Positions 51,208-60,120 of a DNA stretch of 64,000 nucleotides are shown piece by piece. Location: contig CALKIZ010000085.1 of the NCBI GenBank assembly GCA_937995735.1, positions 1 through 64,000 of the forward strand. The letters run 5' to 3'. Source of the stretch: an uncultured Neomegalonema sp. (lineage in GTDB: Bacteria > Pseudomonadota > Alphaproteobacteria > Rhodobacterales > Rhodobacteraceae). Position numbers and translations under genes: made by a program. Position 1 is the first letter of the stretch, and the number at the start of each line of letters is the position of its first letter. The notes beneath the pieces are model-generated. The model was not told the DNA's origin. It saw only the letters and a list, made by a program, of their open reading frames with translations, and searched no databases.

Positions 51208-52377
51208 TTATGATTGGCGACGCATAAATTCTGCAAAAAGTGGAACTGAAAAACCAAGAAAACCATGCTCAGTGCTGTAAATCATCCCTTTCGAGATAGT
51301 GTTGGCACGAACTGGACCTAGCGAAGACAGTTTTTTATTTAAAGCCGCTGCAATATCGTTCATAGCGTAAGGCCCATTCCCTAGTGCAGCCATAGCCTTT
51401 ACGAACTCTGTTTCCTTCGGGGTTAGTCTGTCGAGACGAACTCGAAAGAAGCCCTCGTCGAGTGATGCGAGGGTTTCAGTATAGGCGGTGTCTACATCTT
51501 GTTTAGTGATTTCTGGGCCGACGGCATTGTTCCATGCAATGGACGACCACTCCTGTAGAAAAAATGGATAACCCTGCGTCTTAGTTACAATTTCCGTGAG
51601 CGCATCTGACGAGATAGAAGATTTTTCTTCAATAATAGGTTTTTCCACAGCTTGTTCTGCGGATGCTTGGTCTAATGCGCCTACATTCGGAAAAAGGAAC
51701 AGCCGCTCCGAGTAAGATTTTGCCTCTCCGGCTAGGCGTGCAATTTGTGGAAGTCCAGCGCCAAACATTATAATGGGCAGGCCTGCTTGTGACATTCTAT
51801 GGATTGCTACGATACAAGCGGACAGGTCAGGTTCCGACAGGTATTGAACTTCGTCGATCAGTAGAACCCATCCTTTGCCTCCAGCTTCTGCGGCTTTCCC
51901 AATTGCGGTAAAAAGATCCGGAAGGTCGAATTGAATATCACCACTATCCGCAAGTCCAGGTTCTGGTTCCACGCCAATTTCTGCGCCAGCCACTTGAATA
52001 TTGAATATTGATGCGAAGCCGCGAAGCCCTCTGAGTGCACGTGCGGCGAGTTGCTTTGCGGCTGCTATTCCTGACAGTGCGCGCAATACCTTTCGCATTT
52101 CAGGGTAAAGTAGGCGCGCGAGACTCTGATGTTCTGGGGCTTCTATCTTTGAGATATAGTAGCCTTGATCTTCCGCTATCCGGCCAATCTCATTTAATAG
52201 GACGGTCTTTCCGGTTCCTCGTAATCCGAGAAGCATCATTGATCTGGCATTTCGACCAAGCAAAGCGCGGCCACATGCGATCTTAGCATCATCTAAAATG
52301 TGATCACGTCCTGCCATCTCAGGAGGTTTACTTCCTGCTCCGGGGGCAAAGGGATTACGATATGGGTCCATCGTCAT
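51208..52377 (-). CDS. orphan ORC/AAA-type ATPase with winged-helix tail
   Basis: 389 aa. Seen: the family start MDPYRNPFAPGAGSKPPEMAGRD, Walker A GLRGTGKT (51-58), Walker B VLLIDEVQYL (171-180), sensor-like IIMFGAGLPQIARLAGEAKSYSERL, then the lid (TKTQGYPFFLQEW) and a winged helix (ANTISKGMIYSTEHGFLGFSVPLFAEFMRR). This is a widespread bacterial ATPase family with Orc1/Cdc6-like layout; its function is unknown and it often stands alone, as here. It interrupts the trp gene block between trpE and trpG. A strongly AT-rich segment lies upstream. Confidence 0.82.
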   Translation of the reverse strand: MTMDPYRNPFAPGAGSKPPEMAGRDHILDDAKIACGRALLGRNARSMMLLGLRGTGKTVLLNEIGRIAEDQGYYISKIEAPEHQSLARLLYPEMRKVLRALSGIAAAKQLAARALRGLRGFASIFNIQVAGAEIGVEPEPGLADSGDIQFDLPDLFTAIGKAAEAGGKGWVLLIDEVQYLSEPDLSACIVAIHRMSQAGLPIIMFGAGLPQIARLAGEAKSYSERLFLFPNVGALDQASAEQAVEKPIIEEKSSISSDALTEIVTKTQGYPFFLQEWSSIAWNNAVGPEITKQDVDTAYTETLASLDEGFFRVRLDRLTPKETEFVKAMAALGNGPYAMNDIAAALNKKLSSLGPVRANTISKGMIYSTEHGFLGFSVPLFAEFMRRQS

Positions 52378-52646: not shown

Positions 52647-54182
52647 TTAGCGATTTCCTCTTACGGTTTCTGCGAGTTTTACCGCATCTTCGGCGGCGCG
52701 GAACAATGCTTTTGATTTGTTGACGGTTTCTATCCGTTCTGCCTCAGGATCGGAGTCCCAAACGACGCCGCCGCCAGCCTGCACATACATTGCGCCGTCT
52801 TTGACAACGGCGGTCCGTAAGGCAATCGCGGTATCCATACCGCCATCGGCGCTGAAATAGCCAACACCGCCAGCATAGATGCCTCGTTTTTCCGTCTCTA
52901 ATTCGTTGATAATCTCCATCGCCCTAATTTTAGGAGCGCCGGAGACGGTTCCTGCGGGCAGCCCCGCTAACAGAGCGTCAACGACATCCACATCATCCCG
53001 GATTTCGCCTTCGACATTCGAGACGATGTGCATGACATGGCTATAGTGCTCGACAACGAATTGCTCGGTCGGCTTTACCGTTCCGATCTTTGCAACACGC
53101 CCGACATCGTTGCGACCAAGGTCAAGCAACATCAGGTGTTCCGCGCGTTCTTTCGGATCGCCCAATAGATCCTCTTCCAGCGCAACATCCTCTTGCGGCG
53201 TTGCCCCGCGAGGCCGCGTTCCTGCGATTGGGCGCACGGTGACTGTGCCATCGCGCAGCCGCACCAGAATTTCCGGGCTGGCTCCGACAATCTGGAAACC
53301 GCCAAAATCAAGGAAGTACATATACGGGGACGGGTTCGTGCGTCTCAGCGAGCGGTAGAGCGAAAATGGCGGCAGGGCGAATGGCTTTTTCCAGCGTTGA
53401 GAGGGGACGACCTGAAAAATATCTCCCGCAGCAATAAACTCGCGCGCGTGTTCGACATTCGCGCGGTATTGATCCTCAGTGGTGTTCGAGACGGCCTCGC
53501 CATCAAGCGCGCCCTCTGGCAGTCGGGGTTCCGGAGGTAAGGCCCGATTCATATCGTCGATTGTATCCGCCAGCCGCTCAGCTGCGCGTGAATAAGCGGC
53601 TCTTGCATCCACACCGGATTGAGGCCGGATCGGTGTAACAATCGTCACCATGTCGGCAACATTGTCGATAATGGCGATAAGGGTTGGCCTTGTTAAAATT
53701 GCATCGGGCAAGCCAAGCGGGTCGGGGTTCGGTTCCGGTAGCTTTTCGACGTGGCGGATCATGTCATAGCCAAGATAGCCAAACACACCCGCAGCCATCG
53801 GGGGTAGGGATACCGGCAAGTCGATAGCGCTTTCCCGCAACAGGCTCCGTAGGCTGTCGAGAGGTGGCTGTGCGTCAGTTTCAAACGCTGTTTCGTCCCA
53901 ACGCGCAGAACGATTGACCTCGACCACATCGCCCCGGCAACGCCAGATTAAATCCGGTTTCAAGCCTATCACTGAATACCGGCCACGGTTCTCGCCACCG
54001 GTGACAGATTCAAGTAGAAATGTATCCCGGCGTCCTTGGCCGAGTTTGAGCATCAGGGAAACCGGCGTGTCGGTATCAGCCACCCGCCGGGTCCAAAGAA
54101 CCTGACTTTCCCCTCGGTCGTACTTTACCGCGAATTCGGCAAAATGCGGTTCTATCAGCACGCGATTAGTACCCACCACCAT
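52647..54182 (-). CDS. trpE: anthranilate synthase component I
   Basis: 511 aa. Makes anthranilate from chorismate. Seen: the tryptophan-feedback region FLLESVTGGENRGRYSVIG, and the catalytic part (PSPYMYFLDFGGFQIVGASPEILVR; RPIAGTRPRGATPQED; LLDLGRNDVGRVAK; PAGTVSGAPKIRAMEII; YAGGVGYFSADGGMDTAIALR). The ATG at 54182 is preferred; it makes the gene overlap ppiD by 17 bases. The longer ORF start at 54296 would add 38 residues antisense to nothing useful and not TrpE-like. No trp leader peptide can be seen because ppiD runs directly into the gene. Confidence 0.96.
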   Translation of the reverse strand: MVVGTNRVLIEPHFAEFAVKYDRGESQVLWTRRVADTDTPVSLMLKLGQGRRDTFLLESVTGGENRGRYSVIGLKPDLIWRCRGDVVEVNRSARWDETAFETDAQPPLDSLRSLLRESAIDLPVSLPPMAAGVFGYLGYDMIRHVEKLPEPNPDPLGLPDAILTRPTLIAIIDNVADMVTIVTPIRPQSGVDARAAYSRAAERLADTIDDMNRALPPEPRLPEGALDGEAVSNTTEDQYRANVEHAREFIAAGDIFQVVPSQRWKKPFALPPFSLYRSLRRTNPSPYMYFLDFGGFQIVGASPEILVRLRDGTVTVRPIAGTRPRGATPQEDVALEEDLLGDPKERAEHLMLLDLGRNDVGRVAKIGTVKPTEQFVVEHYSHVMHIVSNVEGEIRDDVDVVDALLAGLPAGTVSGAPKIRAMEIINELETEKRGIYAGGVGYFSADGGMDTAIALRTAVVKDGAMYVQAGGGVVWDSDPEAERIETVNKSKALFRAAEDAVKLAETVRGNR

Positions 54183-56097
54183 GGCCACCGCCGTAGCCAC
54201 CATAACCACCACCAGGGTTTGTGAAGACCGCGTCGATTGCTTGTTGATTTGTTTGTATGGGGTGGCGGCTTCTTGCCGTCCGCGTGAATTGATCAACGAA
54301 ATCTTGTGCTAAACGCGCTGCGTAGCCCTCGGTTGAGCGATCAATCGCGGTGATATCTTCTTCGGATGTCGCGGGCACGATCTCGGTAATAATCCCAACA
54401 ACACGGTTTAAGCTGTCCGAAGACTCGCCTTGGAGAGCATTGCCTTGCTCAGCTTCGAAAATCTCGCCGAGAAGCTCAACTGAAAGCCCTAGAGAGCGGT
54501 CTGTACGTGTGCCGGGGCCAGCAGATTTGACGTCTAGGTCGAGTTCTTTGGCAAGTTCTACAAGGTCGCCTCCGCCATTTAGCTCCTCGACATAGCTTGC
54601 CATCAGCTTTTCGAGGGCTTTTTCACGTTCCGAAACTTCCCATGCACCTGAAACCTGATCTTTGATTGTATCAAGGGGGCGTAAGGCTGCTTCGGTGATC
54701 TCCTCGACTTTCAGCGAGAAGTAATCGCCTGTCGTGCCTTCGATCAAAATAGGTTCTTCGCCAACATCGGTCGCAAAAATGCGTTCAAGAAACTCAGGAT
54801 CATCCGGCAGATCTACAACTCGGTCGCCATTTTCATCGCGGCCTGTAGCATCAATGGCAAGGATTTCAGCATATCTTGCGCCTGATTGTTCGGCTGCTTC
54901 TTTCAAAGATGATCCACCTGCGAGTTGATCGTCGAGATCGACGGAGCGTTCCGGGACGAGTTGCCGTGCTTCGGTCGTTGTGAGTTCTTCTTTCAGGTCA
55001 TCTTTCGCATCTTCGAAGGTTACGACTGTTCGTGGTTCAATGGAGAGAATATTCAGCAAAGACCAACCAAGTGCCGTTCCGACAGGCTCTAAAAGGCCCG
55101 GTTCTGTAGGTGCAAATGCAGCATCGGAGAGGGCGCCGGGCAATCCTTCTTTGGTTTGAATCCCTAGTGATACGTCTTGGGCGCTCAGGCCCCGTGTTTC
55201 AGCGAGTTTTGCAAAAGGTTCGCCATCGGCAATTTTCTTGGCGGCTTCTTTTGCTTCCTCTTCGGTATCAAAGACGATTTGTTCGACACGGCGTCGTTCT
55301 GGTGTTGTGTAGGCGTCTATACGTGAGTTGTATTCTACTTTCAGATCTTGCTCTGATTTTTCCAGACCTGCTGCCACGTCTTTGACAGTCAAGGCAACAT
55401 AGGAAACCTTGCGGAATTCCGGTGCTGTGAACAGAACGGCATTTTCTTGGTGGAATGTTGCGAGTTGATCTTCTGTCGGTTCGCCGGGGTCGTCAACATC
55501 TGATGGCCCTAACGTGATGTAATCGAACGCGCGCTTTTCGTTTCTGTATTTGTAGAGCGCTTCAGCCAGTGTTCGTGGCGCAGTCGTGCCAGTCCCGATG
55601 GATTGCAACAAAGCGTCGCGGGCCAAATCACGGCGGATATTTTCTTCAAACTCGTTCTGGCGGAGGTAGTTGCGCTGTAAGTTTGCATCATAGGCGGTAC
55701 GATCAAACTTTCCGTACGCATCTTGAAACTGAGGAAATTCCATGATTGCCGTACTTACGGCCTCATCCGATGCATCAAGGCCGAGAGCATTCGCCTCTTC
55801 ACTCAAAGCTGTTTCCGTTGCCATTTGATCGAGTACGATGCGGTCAAACCCGCTGCGGCGGGCATCCTCAGGGGTCAGACTAGCGCCCGTTGTGGAGCGG
55901 AGTGCTTGTAGGCGGCCCTCGAATGTTCTTGCAAAGTCTTGAACTTGGATTTCCGCGTTTCCGACTTTGGCGGCGACAGTCTGTGTTCGGGCGGCAAATA
56001 CACCCTCAAGCCCCCATGCCGCAAATGCCACGACCAGTAACCCAAGGAGGATTTTTGCACCTATTGAGCCAACGGAGTTTCGCATCGAGTTGAGCAT
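54166..56097 (-). CDS. ppiD: periplasmic peptidyl-prolyl isomerase, PpiD/SurA-like
   Basis: About 643 aa. One N-terminal membrane anchor (GAKILLGLLVVAFAAWGLEG), a SurA-N-like chaperone domain (residues ~40-230), a parvulin-type rotamase region (about 250-350; RRRVEQIVFDTEEEAKEAAKKI), and a long C-terminal domain. The parvulin core looks weak, as in many PpiD proteins, so chaperone action may dominate. The C-terminus is an unusual glycine/tyrosine tail (NPGGGYGGYGGGHGGGY). The start at 56097 (MLNSMRNSVGS) is preferred over 56163. It is followed, with overlap, by trpE, an order also seen in Rhodobacterales. Confidence 0.9.
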   Translation of the reverse strand: MLNSMRNSVGSIGAKILLGLLVVAFAAWGLEGVFAARTQTVAAKVGNAEIQVQDFARTFEGRLQALRSTTGASLTPEDARRSGFDRIVLDQMATETALSEEANALGLDASDEAVSTAIMEFPQFQDAYGKFDRTAYDANLQRNYLRQNEFEENIRRDLARDALLQSIGTGTTAPRTLAEALYKYRNEKRAFDYITLGPSDVDDPGEPTEDQLATFHQENAVLFTAPEFRKVSYVALTVKDVAAGLEKSEQDLKVEYNSRIDAYTTPERRRVEQIVFDTEEEAKEAAKKIADGEPFAKLAETRGLSAQDVSLGIQTKEGLPGALSDAAFAPTEPGLLEPVGTALGWSLLNILSIEPRTVVTFEDAKDDLKEELTTTEARQLVPERSVDLDDQLAGGSSLKEAAEQSGARYAEILAIDATGRDENGDRVVDLPDDPEFLERIFATDVGEEPILIEGTTGDYFSLKVEEITEAALRPLDTIKDQVSGAWEVSEREKALEKLMASYVEELNGGGDLVELAKELDLDVKSAGPGTRTDRSLGLSVELLGEIFEAEQGNALQGESSDSLNRVVGIITEIVPATSEEDITAIDRSTEGYAARLAQDFVDQFTRTARSRHPIQTNQQAIDAVFTNPGGGYGGYGGGHGGGY

Positions 56098-56394
56098 TTT
56101 TCGTTTCCGCAAATGAGAGTGCGGCGGTTTTCCCGCGCGCTTTGGGTGGGACAATAAGAACATGATGGAACAGGTGCAATACTAAGACTTATCGCATTCC
56201 CGCGAGAGAGGTAAATTGCCATCCCTTTGCCGTAAACATTATGGTAAGCGTCACGAGAATTGTTAAAGACTAATTAATGTGAAATGAGATCATATCGGAT
56301 AGGAGAACGCACTAGAAGGCCCACAACCAAGGCTTTTGCGTTCAATTTACTTGCGGTTCGAGGTTGGCGATGCATCAAAAGGTAGTGGTCATCT

Positions 56395-58008
56395 ATGCGT
56401 GACAATCTCGTTGAAAAGGTTTTCGAATGGGATTTGACATGTAGCCCAGAAGCCTTGTGGCCATTAATATCTGATACTGCACGCATGAACGAGGCCCTGG
56501 GCCAACCACGCTATAACATCAGCGAGACCTTTGACGGCGATAGCATCCGACGACGCTATGGCGAGATGATTGAGGATGGTAACCGCGTCCGCTGGGAAGA
56601 ACCGCCTTACGAATGGGTTGAAAATGGTTGGTGGCGGTGGCGTCGCTTTTATGAAGAGGGACCATTGCGCGAGACGGGTGGTATCTTGATGCTGATGCCG
56701 GGGGAATCCGGCGGTACGCATATCCACTATACTCTACATGTCGAACCCAACGGCGCGCTTGGCCGAATGCTTGTCGCGTCTGGACACTTAAAGCTCGCAG
56801 CGCGGTCATTTCGAAAATTTACGGTAAAACTGGACGAATATTGCCGAAAACCATTCGGGGAATTTTACTCGAATTATGCGTCGCTTTCTACGAAGACGAA
56901 ATCTCCAAATTTACCAAAGGCCAAAAACGCGGAGGCAAAACTGTTAACGCAGTTTGCAGAATGGCTTACTGTTGCGCCAAGAGCTGATCGTGTTGATCTG
57001 CGTTCTAAACGCCTTGCGAGATGCCTCAATGTTTCTGAGCCAGAGGCATTACGTGCGTGCCTTCGTGCAGTAAAATCCGGCGATTTAACGCTGCGCTACC
57101 TTGCGTTATGTTCCGTATGCCGTGCATCGGCGATTGAGGTTGGCTCCCTTGCAGAAATTCCAACTCTTATGGCCTGTCGACGTTGTGGAGCGGGCTATCA
57201 CCGCGACCTTTCTCAATCGGTTGAAATATTGTTTTCGGTTGCAGATGCCAATGATGGCAGCGGTAAATATTGCAGTAGTGGTCCTCACAGTGCGCCTCAC
57301 GTGCTCGTTCAGCAAAATTTGGGAGCAATGGAACGACGTGATCTTGAATATAAACTGTCACCTGGAACTTATGTTGTCCGAGCGGTTGACGGCCCCGTCT
57401 CCGAAGTCTTTGAGATCAAAGAACCGGGCGGCATCCATGTTACGCTGACAAATACCATCTCGGTCGCTGCGCATGAAAACGGTTCGGTCATTGAGAATCA
57501 CAGCAAACGTGAATTCACCGTAACGATTGAACGAAGTGAATGGCATGAAGACGCTTTGTCAGTCGCGAACGTCCTCTCCGAGCAGTGTTATCATGATCTC
57601 TTGCCTGAAGAGATGTTGCCGGATGGGGATTCTGCCTCGATTGATTTTGGTGTCGTCTTGGCGATTGGTGATCTTTCAGGTCCGATATCCGAATATGATA
57701 ATGGGGCGATTATTGAGCATGGAGGAGGGCACATATTGCTGTTCTTCACGTCTGTAAAGCGCGCCGTTGGTGTAGCGGGAAAGCTGGTCAAAGCGCACCC
57801 GGAAGCCCGCTTGGCTTTGGATTGCGGGCCAATGACGGTTTCAACACTGAGCGGGCATATGAGATATATCGGTACGATACCTGATACAGCGCGATCCCTG
57901 TGCCTTAGCGGGCATCGCGGCGTTATAGGAACGTCACAGCGAATGAACGAGGCACTTCTCGAATCTTCGGTGTCATTGCCTGCTTCCGCGCTGATTAAAG
58001 CCCGATAG
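56395..58008 (+). CDS. SRPBCC-DUF5939 protein with degenerate adenylate cyclase-like C-terminus
   Basis: 537 aa, apparently soluble. Residues ~1-155 form an SRPBCC (START-like) ligand-binding domain. Residues ~180-410 match DUF5939, with its zinc-ribbon cysteines CSVC (239-242) and CRRC (261-264). In relatives this pair leads into a class III nucleotide cyclase. Here residues ~416-525 still resemble one (DFGVVLAIGDLSG; EHGGGHILLFF; DCGPMTVSTLSGHMRYIG; PDTARSL) but about 25-30 residues between the first two motifs are missing, the KTIGD metal-binding Asp is gone and the catalytic Asn-Arg motif is lost. A pseudocyclase is the best reading. The gene is intact, so the protein may sense a ligand. 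Confidence 0.8.
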   Translation: MRDNLVEKVFEWDLTCSPEALWPLISDTARMNEALGQPRYNISETFDGDSIRRRYGEMIEDGNRVRWEEPPYEWVENGWWRWRRFYEEGPLRETGGILMLMPGESGGTHIHYTLHVEPNGALGRMLVASGHLKLAARSFRKFTVKLDEYCRKPFGEFYSNYASLSTKTKSPNLPKAKNAEAKLLTQFAEWLTVAPRADRVDLRSKRLARCLNVSEPEALRACLRAVKSGDLTLRYLALCSVCRASAIEVGSLAEIPTLMACRRCGAGYHRDLSQSVEILFSVADANDGSGKYCSSGPHSAPHVLVQQNLGAMERRDLEYKLSPGTYVVRAVDGPVSEVFEIKEPGGIHVTLTNTISVAAHENGSVIENHSKREFTVTIERSEWHEDALSVANVLSEQCYHDLLPEEMLPDGDSASIDFGVVLAIGDLSGPISEYDNGAIIEHGGGHILLFFTSVKRAVGVAGKLVKAHPEARLALDCGPMTVSTLSGHMRYIGTIPDTARSLCLSGHRGVIGTSQRMNEALLESSVSLPASALIKAR

Positions 58009-58017
58009 CCAAATAAT

Positions 58018-60120
58018 TTATGGCGCGTGGGCGTCTTGATCCGGTTCTTTTGCGGAGAATGACAGGATCGGTTCCATGCTTTCGAGTTCGGTTTTCGGTA
58101 GGTGACACTTGATCGTATGGCCGTTTTCAAGCTGTTGTTCCGGCGGAACTTCGCGCTCGCAAAGCCCACCGCTGACTTTGTTTTTGTAGGCGCAACGTGT
58201 CTGAAACGGGCATCCTGAAGGCGGGTTCATTGCCGATGGAATATCACCATCTAATACGACATGCTTTTTCACGACACTGGTATCCGCTATTGGAATCGCT
58301 GAAAGCAATGCCTCGGTGTAGGGATGATAAGGCGGAGAGAATATCTCGTCGGTCGTGCCTTGTTCGACAATGTGACCGAGATACATGACGATCACCCTGT
58401 CAGCGATATAGCGCACGATACTGAGATCATGGCTTATGAACAGCATTGTTGTGCCGCTCTCGCGTTGAATATCCATCAATAGTTCAGTTACGGCCGCTTG
58501 AACTGAAACATCAAGCGCAGACACCGGCTCATCGGCGACAACGATTTGAGGCGCTCCGGCGAATGCCCGTGCGACGCCGATGCGTTGTTTCTGACCGCCG
58601 GAGAGCTGTCGCGGCATCCGCTTGGCGAATTCGCGGGGCAGTTTTACGAGGTCGAGCAGCTTGAGCATATGCTCATGCCGGTCCGCCTTTGATGCGCCGA
58701 TTTCGAATTTTTCGAGCGTTCGGATGATTTGTGAACCAACTGTGTGGCTGGGGTTGAGCGTATCAAACGGATTTTGGAAAACCATCTGAATCGCAGCGAC
58801 GGTTTTGGTGTCCCGATCTTCGATGCCTGTTGATTGGATTTCTTGTCCGTTCAACGTGACTTTTCCGTCAGTCGCTGTCTCCAGCCCGAGTAAGACTTTG
58901 GCTAAAGTGGACTTGCCGCAGCCACTCTCACCAACGATGGCGATTGTTTCTGCTTCATGCGCGGTGAAGGAAAGCGTTTCGTTTGCCTTTACGGTTCGGG
59001 TTTCGCTGCCGCCGAGCATCGAGCTGGCCGCAACATCGTAGTATTTCTTCAGATTTTCGACCCTGAGCACTTCTTTCCCGCGCTGCGTCGGCGGATGCTT
59101 TGCTAGTCCATCCGGTAAAGCATTCCAATCCAGTTCCGTAAAACGTTCACAACGGCTGAAATGGTCATTGTGCAGAGGTACAGGTTGCATCGGAACTTCA
59201 CGCGCATCGCATGTGCCTGCCTGAAAATGAAGGCAACGCGGCCCGAAATTACAACCGTATGGGCGCTCGTGGGGCAGAGGGAGCTGACCGGGAATAGCGA
59301 TTAGGGGGCGCTCGTTTTTATCCGCCCCCGGCAATGGGATCGAGCGAAAGAGGCCCTGAGTATAAGGGTGACGCATCCGGTCAAACACGTCTTTGACTGT
59401 GCCGCTTTCAACCGCTTCGCCGGAATACATCACCGTCACCCGGTCGCATGTCTCGAGGATCAAACCGAGATTGTGTGATATGAACAGCATCGACGTGCCG
59501 AACTTCTTGCCGAGGTCTTTGACAAGATCGACAATCCCGGCCTCAACTGTCACGTCGAGCGCGGTTGTCGGCTCATCAAGCAACAAGAGCTTGGGCTTTG
59601 ACAAAAGCGCCATCGCGATAACGATACGTTGCTGTTGACCCCCGGATAATTGGTGCGGGTAAGAGCGCATGATCCGTTTAGGGTCTGGCAGTTTTACGTC
59701 CTCGAGCATCTCAAGAGAGCGCGCAAAAGCATCCTTTGTGCTCGCGCCTTCATGGATTTCGAGGACTTCCATCAGTTGCCGCCCGACTTTCATTGCCGGG
59801 TTGAGACTGGCCATCGGTTCCTGATAGATCATTGCGATTTTACTGCCGCGAATATCACGAAGCTCATCGTCTGACATCTCGCCCATGTCGCGGCCCATGA
59901 ACTTAATCGTGCCGCCGGTGATCTTTCCGCGATTGCCCATATCGCGCATGACGCCCAAGGCGACCGTTGACTTACCGCAACCGGATTCGCCCACGAGTCC
60001 CATGGCTTCGCCGGGCATGACCTTGCAAGAAAAGTCCATCACCGCCGGAATCTCACCAGCACGGACAAAGAAAGAAATCGACAGGTTTTCGATTTCCAGG
60101 ATTGGGGTCTCTTCGTTCAT
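58018..60120 (-). CDS. oligopeptide-type ABC importer, fused double ATPase
   Basis: 700 aa with two complete ATPase halves, equivalent to OppD plus OppF in one chain. First half: Walker A GESGCGKSTVALG, signature LSGGQQQRIVIAMAL, Walker B LLLLDEPTTALD. Second half (from ~residue 355): Walker A GESGCGKSTLAKV, signature LSGGQKQRIGVARAF, Walker B IVVADEPVSALD. Each half ends with the oligopeptide-transporter Cys-rich tail (CNFGPRCLHFQAGTCD; CPFQTRCAYKNKVSGGLCE), which binds an iron-sulfur cluster in some relatives. It powers the permeases encoded directly upstream. It converges on the SRPBCC gene with 9 bases between stops. Confidence 0.94.
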   Translation of the reverse strand: MNEETPILEIENLSISFFVRAGEIPAVMDFSCKVMPGEAMGLVGESGCGKSTVALGVMRDMGNRGKITGGTIKFMGRDMGEMSDDELRDIRGSKIAMIYQEPMASLNPAMKVGRQLMEVLEIHEGASTKDAFARSLEMLEDVKLPDPKRIMRSYPHQLSGGQQQRIVIAMALLSKPKLLLLDEPTTALDVTVEAGIVDLVKDLGKKFGTSMLFISHNLGLILETCDRVTVMYSGEAVESGTVKDVFDRMRHPYTQGLFRSIPLPGADKNERPLIAIPGQLPLPHERPYGCNFGPRCLHFQAGTCDAREVPMQPVPLHNDHFSRCERFTELDWNALPDGLAKHPPTQRGKEVLRVENLKKYYDVAASSMLGGSETRTVKANETLSFTAHEAETIAIVGESGCGKSTLAKVLLGLETATDGKVTLNGQEIQSTGIEDRDTKTVAAIQMVFQNPFDTLNPSHTVGSQIIRTLEKFEIGASKADRHEHMLKLLDLVKLPREFAKRMPRQLSGGQKQRIGVARAFAGAPQIVVADEPVSALDVSVQAAVTELLMDIQRESGTTMLFISHDLSIVRYIADRVIVMYLGHIVEQGTTDEIFSPPYHPYTEALLSAIPIADTSVVKKHVVLDGDIPSAMNPPSGCPFQTRCAYKNKVSGGLCEREVPPEQQLENGHTIKCHLPKTELESMEPILSFSAKEPDQDAHAP

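Follow-up and report, generated by a model that had tools for sequence, protein, structure and literature searches.

The gene described here lies in a stretch of 64,000 nucleotides (the window) and encodes a protein in which an SRPBCC domain, a DUF5939-like region and a linker helix lead into a class III nucleotide cyclase domain that has very probably lost canonical catalysis. The degenerate cyclase is an old and maintained state of this gene and not the decay of one copy. We consider it fairly probable that the protein acts as a ligand-sensing pseudoenzyme, which would signal by protein contact and not by cyclic nucleotide synthesis.

Gene and locus

The host of the gene is a Neomegalonema-type alphaproteobacterium. 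The reading frame, which had been claimed to be open in an earlier note made from the DNA letters, is complete from ATG to TAG without internal stops (Table 1). The gene is divergent from a PpiD-like gene, which is followed by trpE, and convergent with a peptide-type ABC transporter gene, with 9 bases between the two ends (58008-58018). The ppiD-trpE pair adjoins in the same arrangement at all 13 other loci of the genus. An oligopeptide-type transporter gene is adjoining also in L062, L063 and L144, and not in L064-L071, L125 and L145. The conserved divergent ppiD is a neighbour; it is neither evidence of function nor a proven partner. Elsewhere in the window, a frame of 389 aa on the minus strand (51208-52377) contains a P-loop-like GLRGTGKT stretch and gave no NCBIfam match at E 1e-10.

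Table 1. Position of the gene, its parts and its upstream surroundings in the window
Feature	Position	Strand	Remarks
PpiD-like peptidylprolyl isomerase	54166..56163	-	NCBIfam NF008054, E 5.6e-45, under its cut-off
Divergent intergenic region between PpiD-like gene and window gene	56164..56394	.	same gene order at 13/13 other genus loci
Whole gene: SRPBCC, DUF5939-like/zinc-ribbon-like, beta region, pseudo-cyclase	56395..58008	+	537 aa
SRPBCC (Bet v1/START-like) domain, residues 1-155	56395..56859	+	Foldseek; Pfam PF10604 subthreshold, E 0.0046
DUF5939-like region, residues 178-300	56926..57294	+	PF19363 subthreshold, E 0.055, residues 190-283
Zinc-ribbon-like CxxC...CxxC (C239, C242, C261, C264)	57109..57186	+	cysteine conservation; zinc binding putative
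Helices entering the cyclase core, residues 386-402	57550..57600	+	model helices 390-394 and 397-402; start of profile match
Pseudo-cyclase domain, residues 405-537	57607..58005	+	core secondary structure retained, without alpha1-alpha2 and the C-terminal tail
D426, possible remnant of first metal Asp	57670..57672	+	two alignments differ by one column

The sensor half

The profile searches proposed in the earlier note succeeded with the relatives and less so with the window protein itself, for which Pfam gave no match over cut-off: Polyketide_cyc2 (E 0.0046) and DUF5939 (E 0.055) remained subthreshold and Guanylate_cyc was absent. PF19363 demands 22.5 bits, of which the window protein reaches 13.1, whereas many relatives surpass it, for example L017 with 49.7 bits. 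The domain assignment of the window protein rests on such relatives, and L017 passes all three Pfam models. The AlphaFold2 model of the protein, built with 17 sequences, has a mean pLDDT of 87.8 and a pTM of 0.83. When this full model was compared by Foldseek, the best 50 of 1614 matches were SRPBCC/PR-10/START-type folds (best E 8.0e-7, probability 1.00), which identifies a helix-grip fold with a pocket although the corresponding Pfam model stays under its cut-off.

A WEExPxEW motif is situated within the SRPBCC domain at residues 67-74. The first three cysteines of the zinc-ribbon-like region occur in 110/110 aligned rows (one of them a duplicate) and the fourth in 105/110 rows, including all 14 genus members. 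Motif, cysteines and linker helix are kept alike in active and dead members, which agrees with the previous claim that the sensor domains are preserved.

Descent and fold of the C-terminal domain

The C-terminal region of approximately 150 residues shares its ancestry with class III nucleotide cyclases. When the 14 genus domains were combined into a profile, it matched the intact family members with a probability of 98.0%, an E value of 1.9e-13 and a score of 86.9, compared with scores of at most 20.4 for 20 column-shuffled control profiles. The fold points in the same direction. The domain modelled alone reached a pLDDT of 82.0, the best 50 of its 622 Foldseek matches were class III cyclases or cyclase-like proteins (best E 2.8e-5), and VIA-align, re-examining Foldseek's own matches, gave Z 12.3 for the first three rows with 116-143 residues aligned. 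Nevertheless, PF00211 does not match the window protein, and searches of the sequences of solved structures with the whole protein and with the domain returned nothing significant, the mycobacterial Ma1120 being subthreshold at E 0.24-0.72.

In the full model the core consists of strand 1 (residues 413-425), a strand pair (438-451), a helix (454-467), further strands (472-492) and two helices (494-505 and 515-523). The three motifs quoted in the earlier note, GDLSG, HGGGHILLFF and a third one, are located at residues 425-429, 442-451 and 477-493. The cyclase order of motifs and the missing residues it had described were both confirmed, the former by the profile match and the latter by alignment to L017, relative to which 24 residues are gone at alpha1-alpha2 and 11 more ahead of the next strand. 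The span between fixed columns measures 102 residues in the window protein versus 130-147 in the 84 aligned members that keep all six catalytic residues. The protein also ends early, with 20 residues after the core versus 38 in L081 and 50 in L017, both of which are intact.

Loss of the catalytic residues

Class III catalysis depends on six residues, for which L017 served as yardstick: two metal-binding Asp (here called first and second), a Lys and an Asp that bind the purine, and an Asn and an Arg for the transition state. Residues were counted in 110 rows with one duplicate (L072 = L152), hence in 109 distinct members. Eighty-four of these keep all six residues and 25 keep three or fewer, while none keeps four or five; all 14 genus members fall among the 25. 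The window protein is without five or six of the six. Four of the positions have lost their residue in all 14: the second metal Asp is replaced by G, A or S, the purine Lys by E, L or A, and the purine Asp by R, V, N, L or G, and the Asn is absent as well. The Arg column holds S or D and has R in L005 alone. Hence, the claimed loss of catalytic residues extends to the window protein and all genus orthologues, which makes a loss of catalysis very probable in spite of the class III-like fold that structure prediction, as proposed, had recovered.

The exception is the first metal position, which is ambiguous in five genus members and vacant in nine. D426, the Asp of GDLSG at the end of strand 1, lies one column off this position in one alignment and exactly on it in another. 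An Asp is found at this place in the five genus members nearest to the window, its own included, and in none of the other nine. Because of this placement, the window's subclade may still possess the first metal Asp. The loss of the metal Asp residues claimed previously thus holds for the second one throughout the genus, whereas the first may persist in the five-member subclade. D426 cannot serve alone in catalysis. The further proposal that the protein senses cyclic nucleotides was not supported, because the purine-binding residues are lost as well.

Retention and selection within the genus

An orthologue of 524-538 aa is present in 14/14 genus genomes, and all are degenerate. The shortened domain is common to all 14, which answers affirmatively the question whether orthologues share the deletion; a frameshift or assembly error behind it was rejected for this reason, and no frameshifts were found in the 14 genomes. 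Close relatives do carry a cyclase-like region, contrary to what would have refuted the earlier reading. L003 ends 13 residues early, and the C-termini of all nine proteins of the sister subclade lie a few residues apart at most.

The dN/dS analysis suggested earlier revealed purifying selection on the degenerate domain. For residues 386-520, NG86 omega was 0.091, 0.182, 0.163, 0.122, 0.111 and 0.106 in six close pairs (three of them with members in common), compared with 0.035-0.098 for the SRPBCC domain, which was lower in every pair. Hence, the constraint on the degenerate domain is relaxed but not absent. Nine pairs were run in total. For the wider pair L010/L014 the values were 0.314 (domain) and 0.212 (SRPBCC); L001/L004 gave a value for the domain only (0.188), and L001/L003 gave none because synonymous sites were saturated. 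In addition, the cyclase domain is now the least conserved part in the genus. Among pairs with an SRPBCC identity of 0.35-0.60, the cyclase region exceeds SRPBCC in 1263/1263 intact pairs (mean 0.65; six of the 84 intact rows, L018-L021, L047 and L098, are not part of this comparison), whereas it falls below SRPBCC in 48/49 genus pairs (mean 0.26).

These values bear on the most serious rival, namely that the domain is a dying remnant. In such a case function would reside solely in the SRPBCC and zinc-type parts, which might serve as a carrier or bind aromatic compounds, and the domain would persist for no other reason than the harm done by a misfolded tail. The higher omega of the domain in six of six close pairs, its much lower conservation than in intact members, the graded shortening described below and the early end of L003 are what a remnant would lead one to expect, and the weaker constraint could reflect a need to fold and nothing else. 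However, omega values of 0.09-0.18, intact frames in all 14 genomes, the near-equal ends of the nine sister-subclade members and the fairly confident fold of the domain modelled alone speak against it, and we regard it as unlikely.

Graded shortening and repeated loss in the wider family

The relatives were taken as the best 80 of 231. The family alignment started from 127 rows and left out 15 duplicates and five partial or fused members (L025, L076, L080, L124 and L131), of which L080 was analysed afterwards. In the GTDB family a full-length homologue was found in 7/394 sampled genomes, with the best three candidates scored per genome, and all seven are degenerate; a further genome, G573, matches over the DUF5939 and cyclase parts only. 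Five members from outside the genus keep 0-2 of the six catalytic residues. Between the fixed columns, L015, L016, L072 and L153 have 138-155 residues and L154 has 124, followed by 106-109 in nine genus members and 102 in the window's five. The occurrence of long domains with 0-2 residues outside the genus and of short domains inside suggests that the catalytic residues were lost before the helices, an order read from alignment lengths and residue counts.

A careful family tree of 50 rows, from which ten intact rows and L152 were left out and to which L153 and L154 (the latter on a long branch) were added, was built from the N-terminal part only; therefore, the decayed domain cannot shape it. 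In it, one clade (99/96) unites the 19 Neomegalonema-type rows and another (100/99) the four planctomycete rows, while the pair L045/L046 stands beside an intact row (85/90). This tree contains three changes between intact and degenerate, two of them forced by well supported branches, with the bootstrap not settled. A quick tree of 58 rows joined L045/L046 to the Neomegalonema-type rows and contained two changes, and a later quick tree of 56 rows contained four, with L220 (4/6 residues) counted as degenerate and L234 left out. The cyclase residues were thus lost more than once, the trees needing two to four losses. The L045/L046 pair runs against the general pattern of conservation, its degenerate cyclase region being 0.74 identical versus 0.59 for SRPBCC. 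An intact cyclase next to the degenerate gene was ruled out at 26 scanned loci of degenerate members (flanks of up to approximately 5 kb, some shorter), since the intact-domain profile at E 1e-3 matched at 13 of them and only in the gene's own frame.

Kinase fusions in the planctomycete phylum

In five degenerate relatives the frame also encodes a Ser/Thr kinase domain (PF00069, E 1.6e-57 to 1.5e-46), and these five were the only matches when the kinase sequence was compared with the 127 family frames at E 1. A survey of the planctomycete phylum returned 57 match rows in 45/294 genomes. The 30 rows scoring best to the degenerate-member profile were taken as loci, and the other 27 include a second kinase-length frame in G1088. 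Seven of the 30 loci are kinase-fused and all seven are degenerate, whereas 22 of the unfused ones keep 6/6 residues and one keeps 4/6. Overall, 11 distinct kinase-fused proteins were obtained (L080, L123, L132, L134, L135, L212-L215, L221 (L242) and L227 (L243)), all confirmed by Pfam and all degenerate, compared with 22/23 intact among the unfused proteins examined. Among the single members, L234 has an internal stop in frame, and the long frame of L228 gave no kinase match, its upstream part looking non-coding by eye. The kinase match of L221 is in two pieces with query positions 125-175 unmatched, and because of this gap its kinase may be inactive.

In the quick tree the 11 kinase-fused rows form one clade (SH-aLRT 83), which excludes many independent fusions. 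Hence, the association of fusion and loss counts as one or two events and not as eleven. In L227 the kinase follows the cyclase, i.e. it is attached at the other end, so that two fusions or a rearrangement are possible. The fact that all kinase-fused members are degenerate speaks for a module that has been employed again with a different output, and it gives a hint at the mechanism from the planctomycete side.

Cyclases in the host genomes

The window's draft genome (113 contigs, 99.52% complete) gave no class III cyclase at either threshold used, E 0.01 and 0.1, and a search for class I cyclases at E 0.01 was likewise negative. Since neither of these two classes was found, a cyclic nucleotide made by the protein itself or by a partner is not a likely output in this genome, which in turn favours a contact-based response to a ligand. 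The genome does encode two cNMP-binding proteins, one of which (L142; contig C30, 24400-26200) is CRP-like with a GE...RSA stretch that resembles that of cAMP-binding CRP proteins, making it a putative cAMP binder.

The host genomes also bear on a second rival, modelled on the mammalian C1/C2 enzymes, in which the pseudo-cyclase would form a heterodimer with an active class III cyclase from another locus, supplying or blocking half of its site. Class III enzymes act as dimers, other class III cyclases occur in 12/14 genus genomes, and an Asp perhaps persists at the first metal position in 5/14 members. However, the window's genome and G007 (68% complete, no class III match at E 0.1) both keep the gene in the apparent lack of such a partner. 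Moreover, the residues that both halves contribute to a shared site are lost; therefore, completion of a partner's site would be unlikely. We judge this pairing to be improbable.

Proposed mechanism

Under the contact-based reading, the SRPBCC pocket would bind a hydrophobic or aromatic small molecule, and the zinc-ribbon/DUF5939 region together with the linker helix would pass the change on to the C-terminal class III core. This core is predicted to be unable to bind two metals, to hold a purine or to stabilise the transition state, and without alpha1-alpha2 it may persist as a folded unit for interaction or dimerisation. Binding of the ligand could then alter the contacts of the core with itself or with a partner. 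Against this reading stands the lack, in Neomegalonema, of any fused or conserved element that would supply an output. A third rival, in which the domain would hold a nucleotide but not cyclise it or would have acquired a different activity, is slightly more improbable still than the pairing with an active cyclase. In its favour are the ATP-binding 6yii (by its PDB title) among the Foldseek matches listed and the invariant residues of the 14 genus domains, including an Arg and an Asp of the ARxxxDxG strand. Against it are the loss of the purine Lys and Asp in 14/14 and the 11/159 invariant columns, with no obvious new site by eye.

More tentatively, SRPBCC-DUF5939-pseudo-cyclase might represent a transferable module for ligand sensing, a second-messenger enzyme having repeatedly been made into an allosteric part. 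In Planctomycetes it would be joined to Ser/Thr kinases, with two domain orders, whereas in Neomegalonema-type bacteria it would act in trans. A cyclic-nucleotide pathway would thereby have been rewired to contact-based or kinase signalling with the sensor unchanged. If true, successive stages could be compared within the family, from active enzymes through members without the residues to members that lack the helices too, with intact sisters serving as controls and the kinase fusions as a side branch, so that the conversion of an enzyme into a signalling part becomes testable. Annotators should be cautious as well, since a count of cyclases by domain order would take in members for which synthesis of a cyclic nucleotide is very improbable.

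Comparison with known systems

Pseudo-kinases are well studied. Little open-licence literature on degenerate bacterial class III cyclase domains was found, and the terms 'inactive cyclase domain' and 'degenerate cyclase' are rare in it. No mention of DUF5939 was found in open-licence full texts, to which subscription papers mostly do not belong, and neither was SRPBCC together with guanylate cyclase, nor a paper on 6yii. PMC4452763 shows cyclase-LuxR fusions. Likewise, open-licence papers yielded no description of the helix-loss architecture, its genus-wide retention, a genome without a detected cyclase or the kinase-fused sister lineage. The kind as such is already known, since there are class III-like proteins which do not bear the name of cyclase, such as 6yii by its PDB title.

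The closest known proteins are those with the order SRPBCC-DUF5939-Guanylate_cyc, such as L017, from Reyranella, Mycobacterium and others. They share domain order, cysteines, linker helix and core strands with the window protein, which differs from them by the lack of five or six catalytic residues, alpha1-alpha2, the C-terminal tail and a Pfam cyclase match. The core fold is also shared with the mycobacterial Ma1120, Rv1900c and Rv1625c (VIA-align Z 11-12), which are active cyclases with metal and transition-state residues, unlike the window protein. The P. aeruginosa protein 6yii, class III adenylyl cyclase-like by its PDB title, has the class III fold in common; the same title describes it as ATP-binding, in contrast to the window protein with its lost purine residues. 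Finally, the planctomycete proteins composed of kinase, SRPBCC, DUF5939 and degenerate cyclase have lost the catalytic residues of the cyclase domain as the window protein has, and they differ from it by the fused kinase, their separate clade and a longer domain of 129-144 residues in the four members measured.
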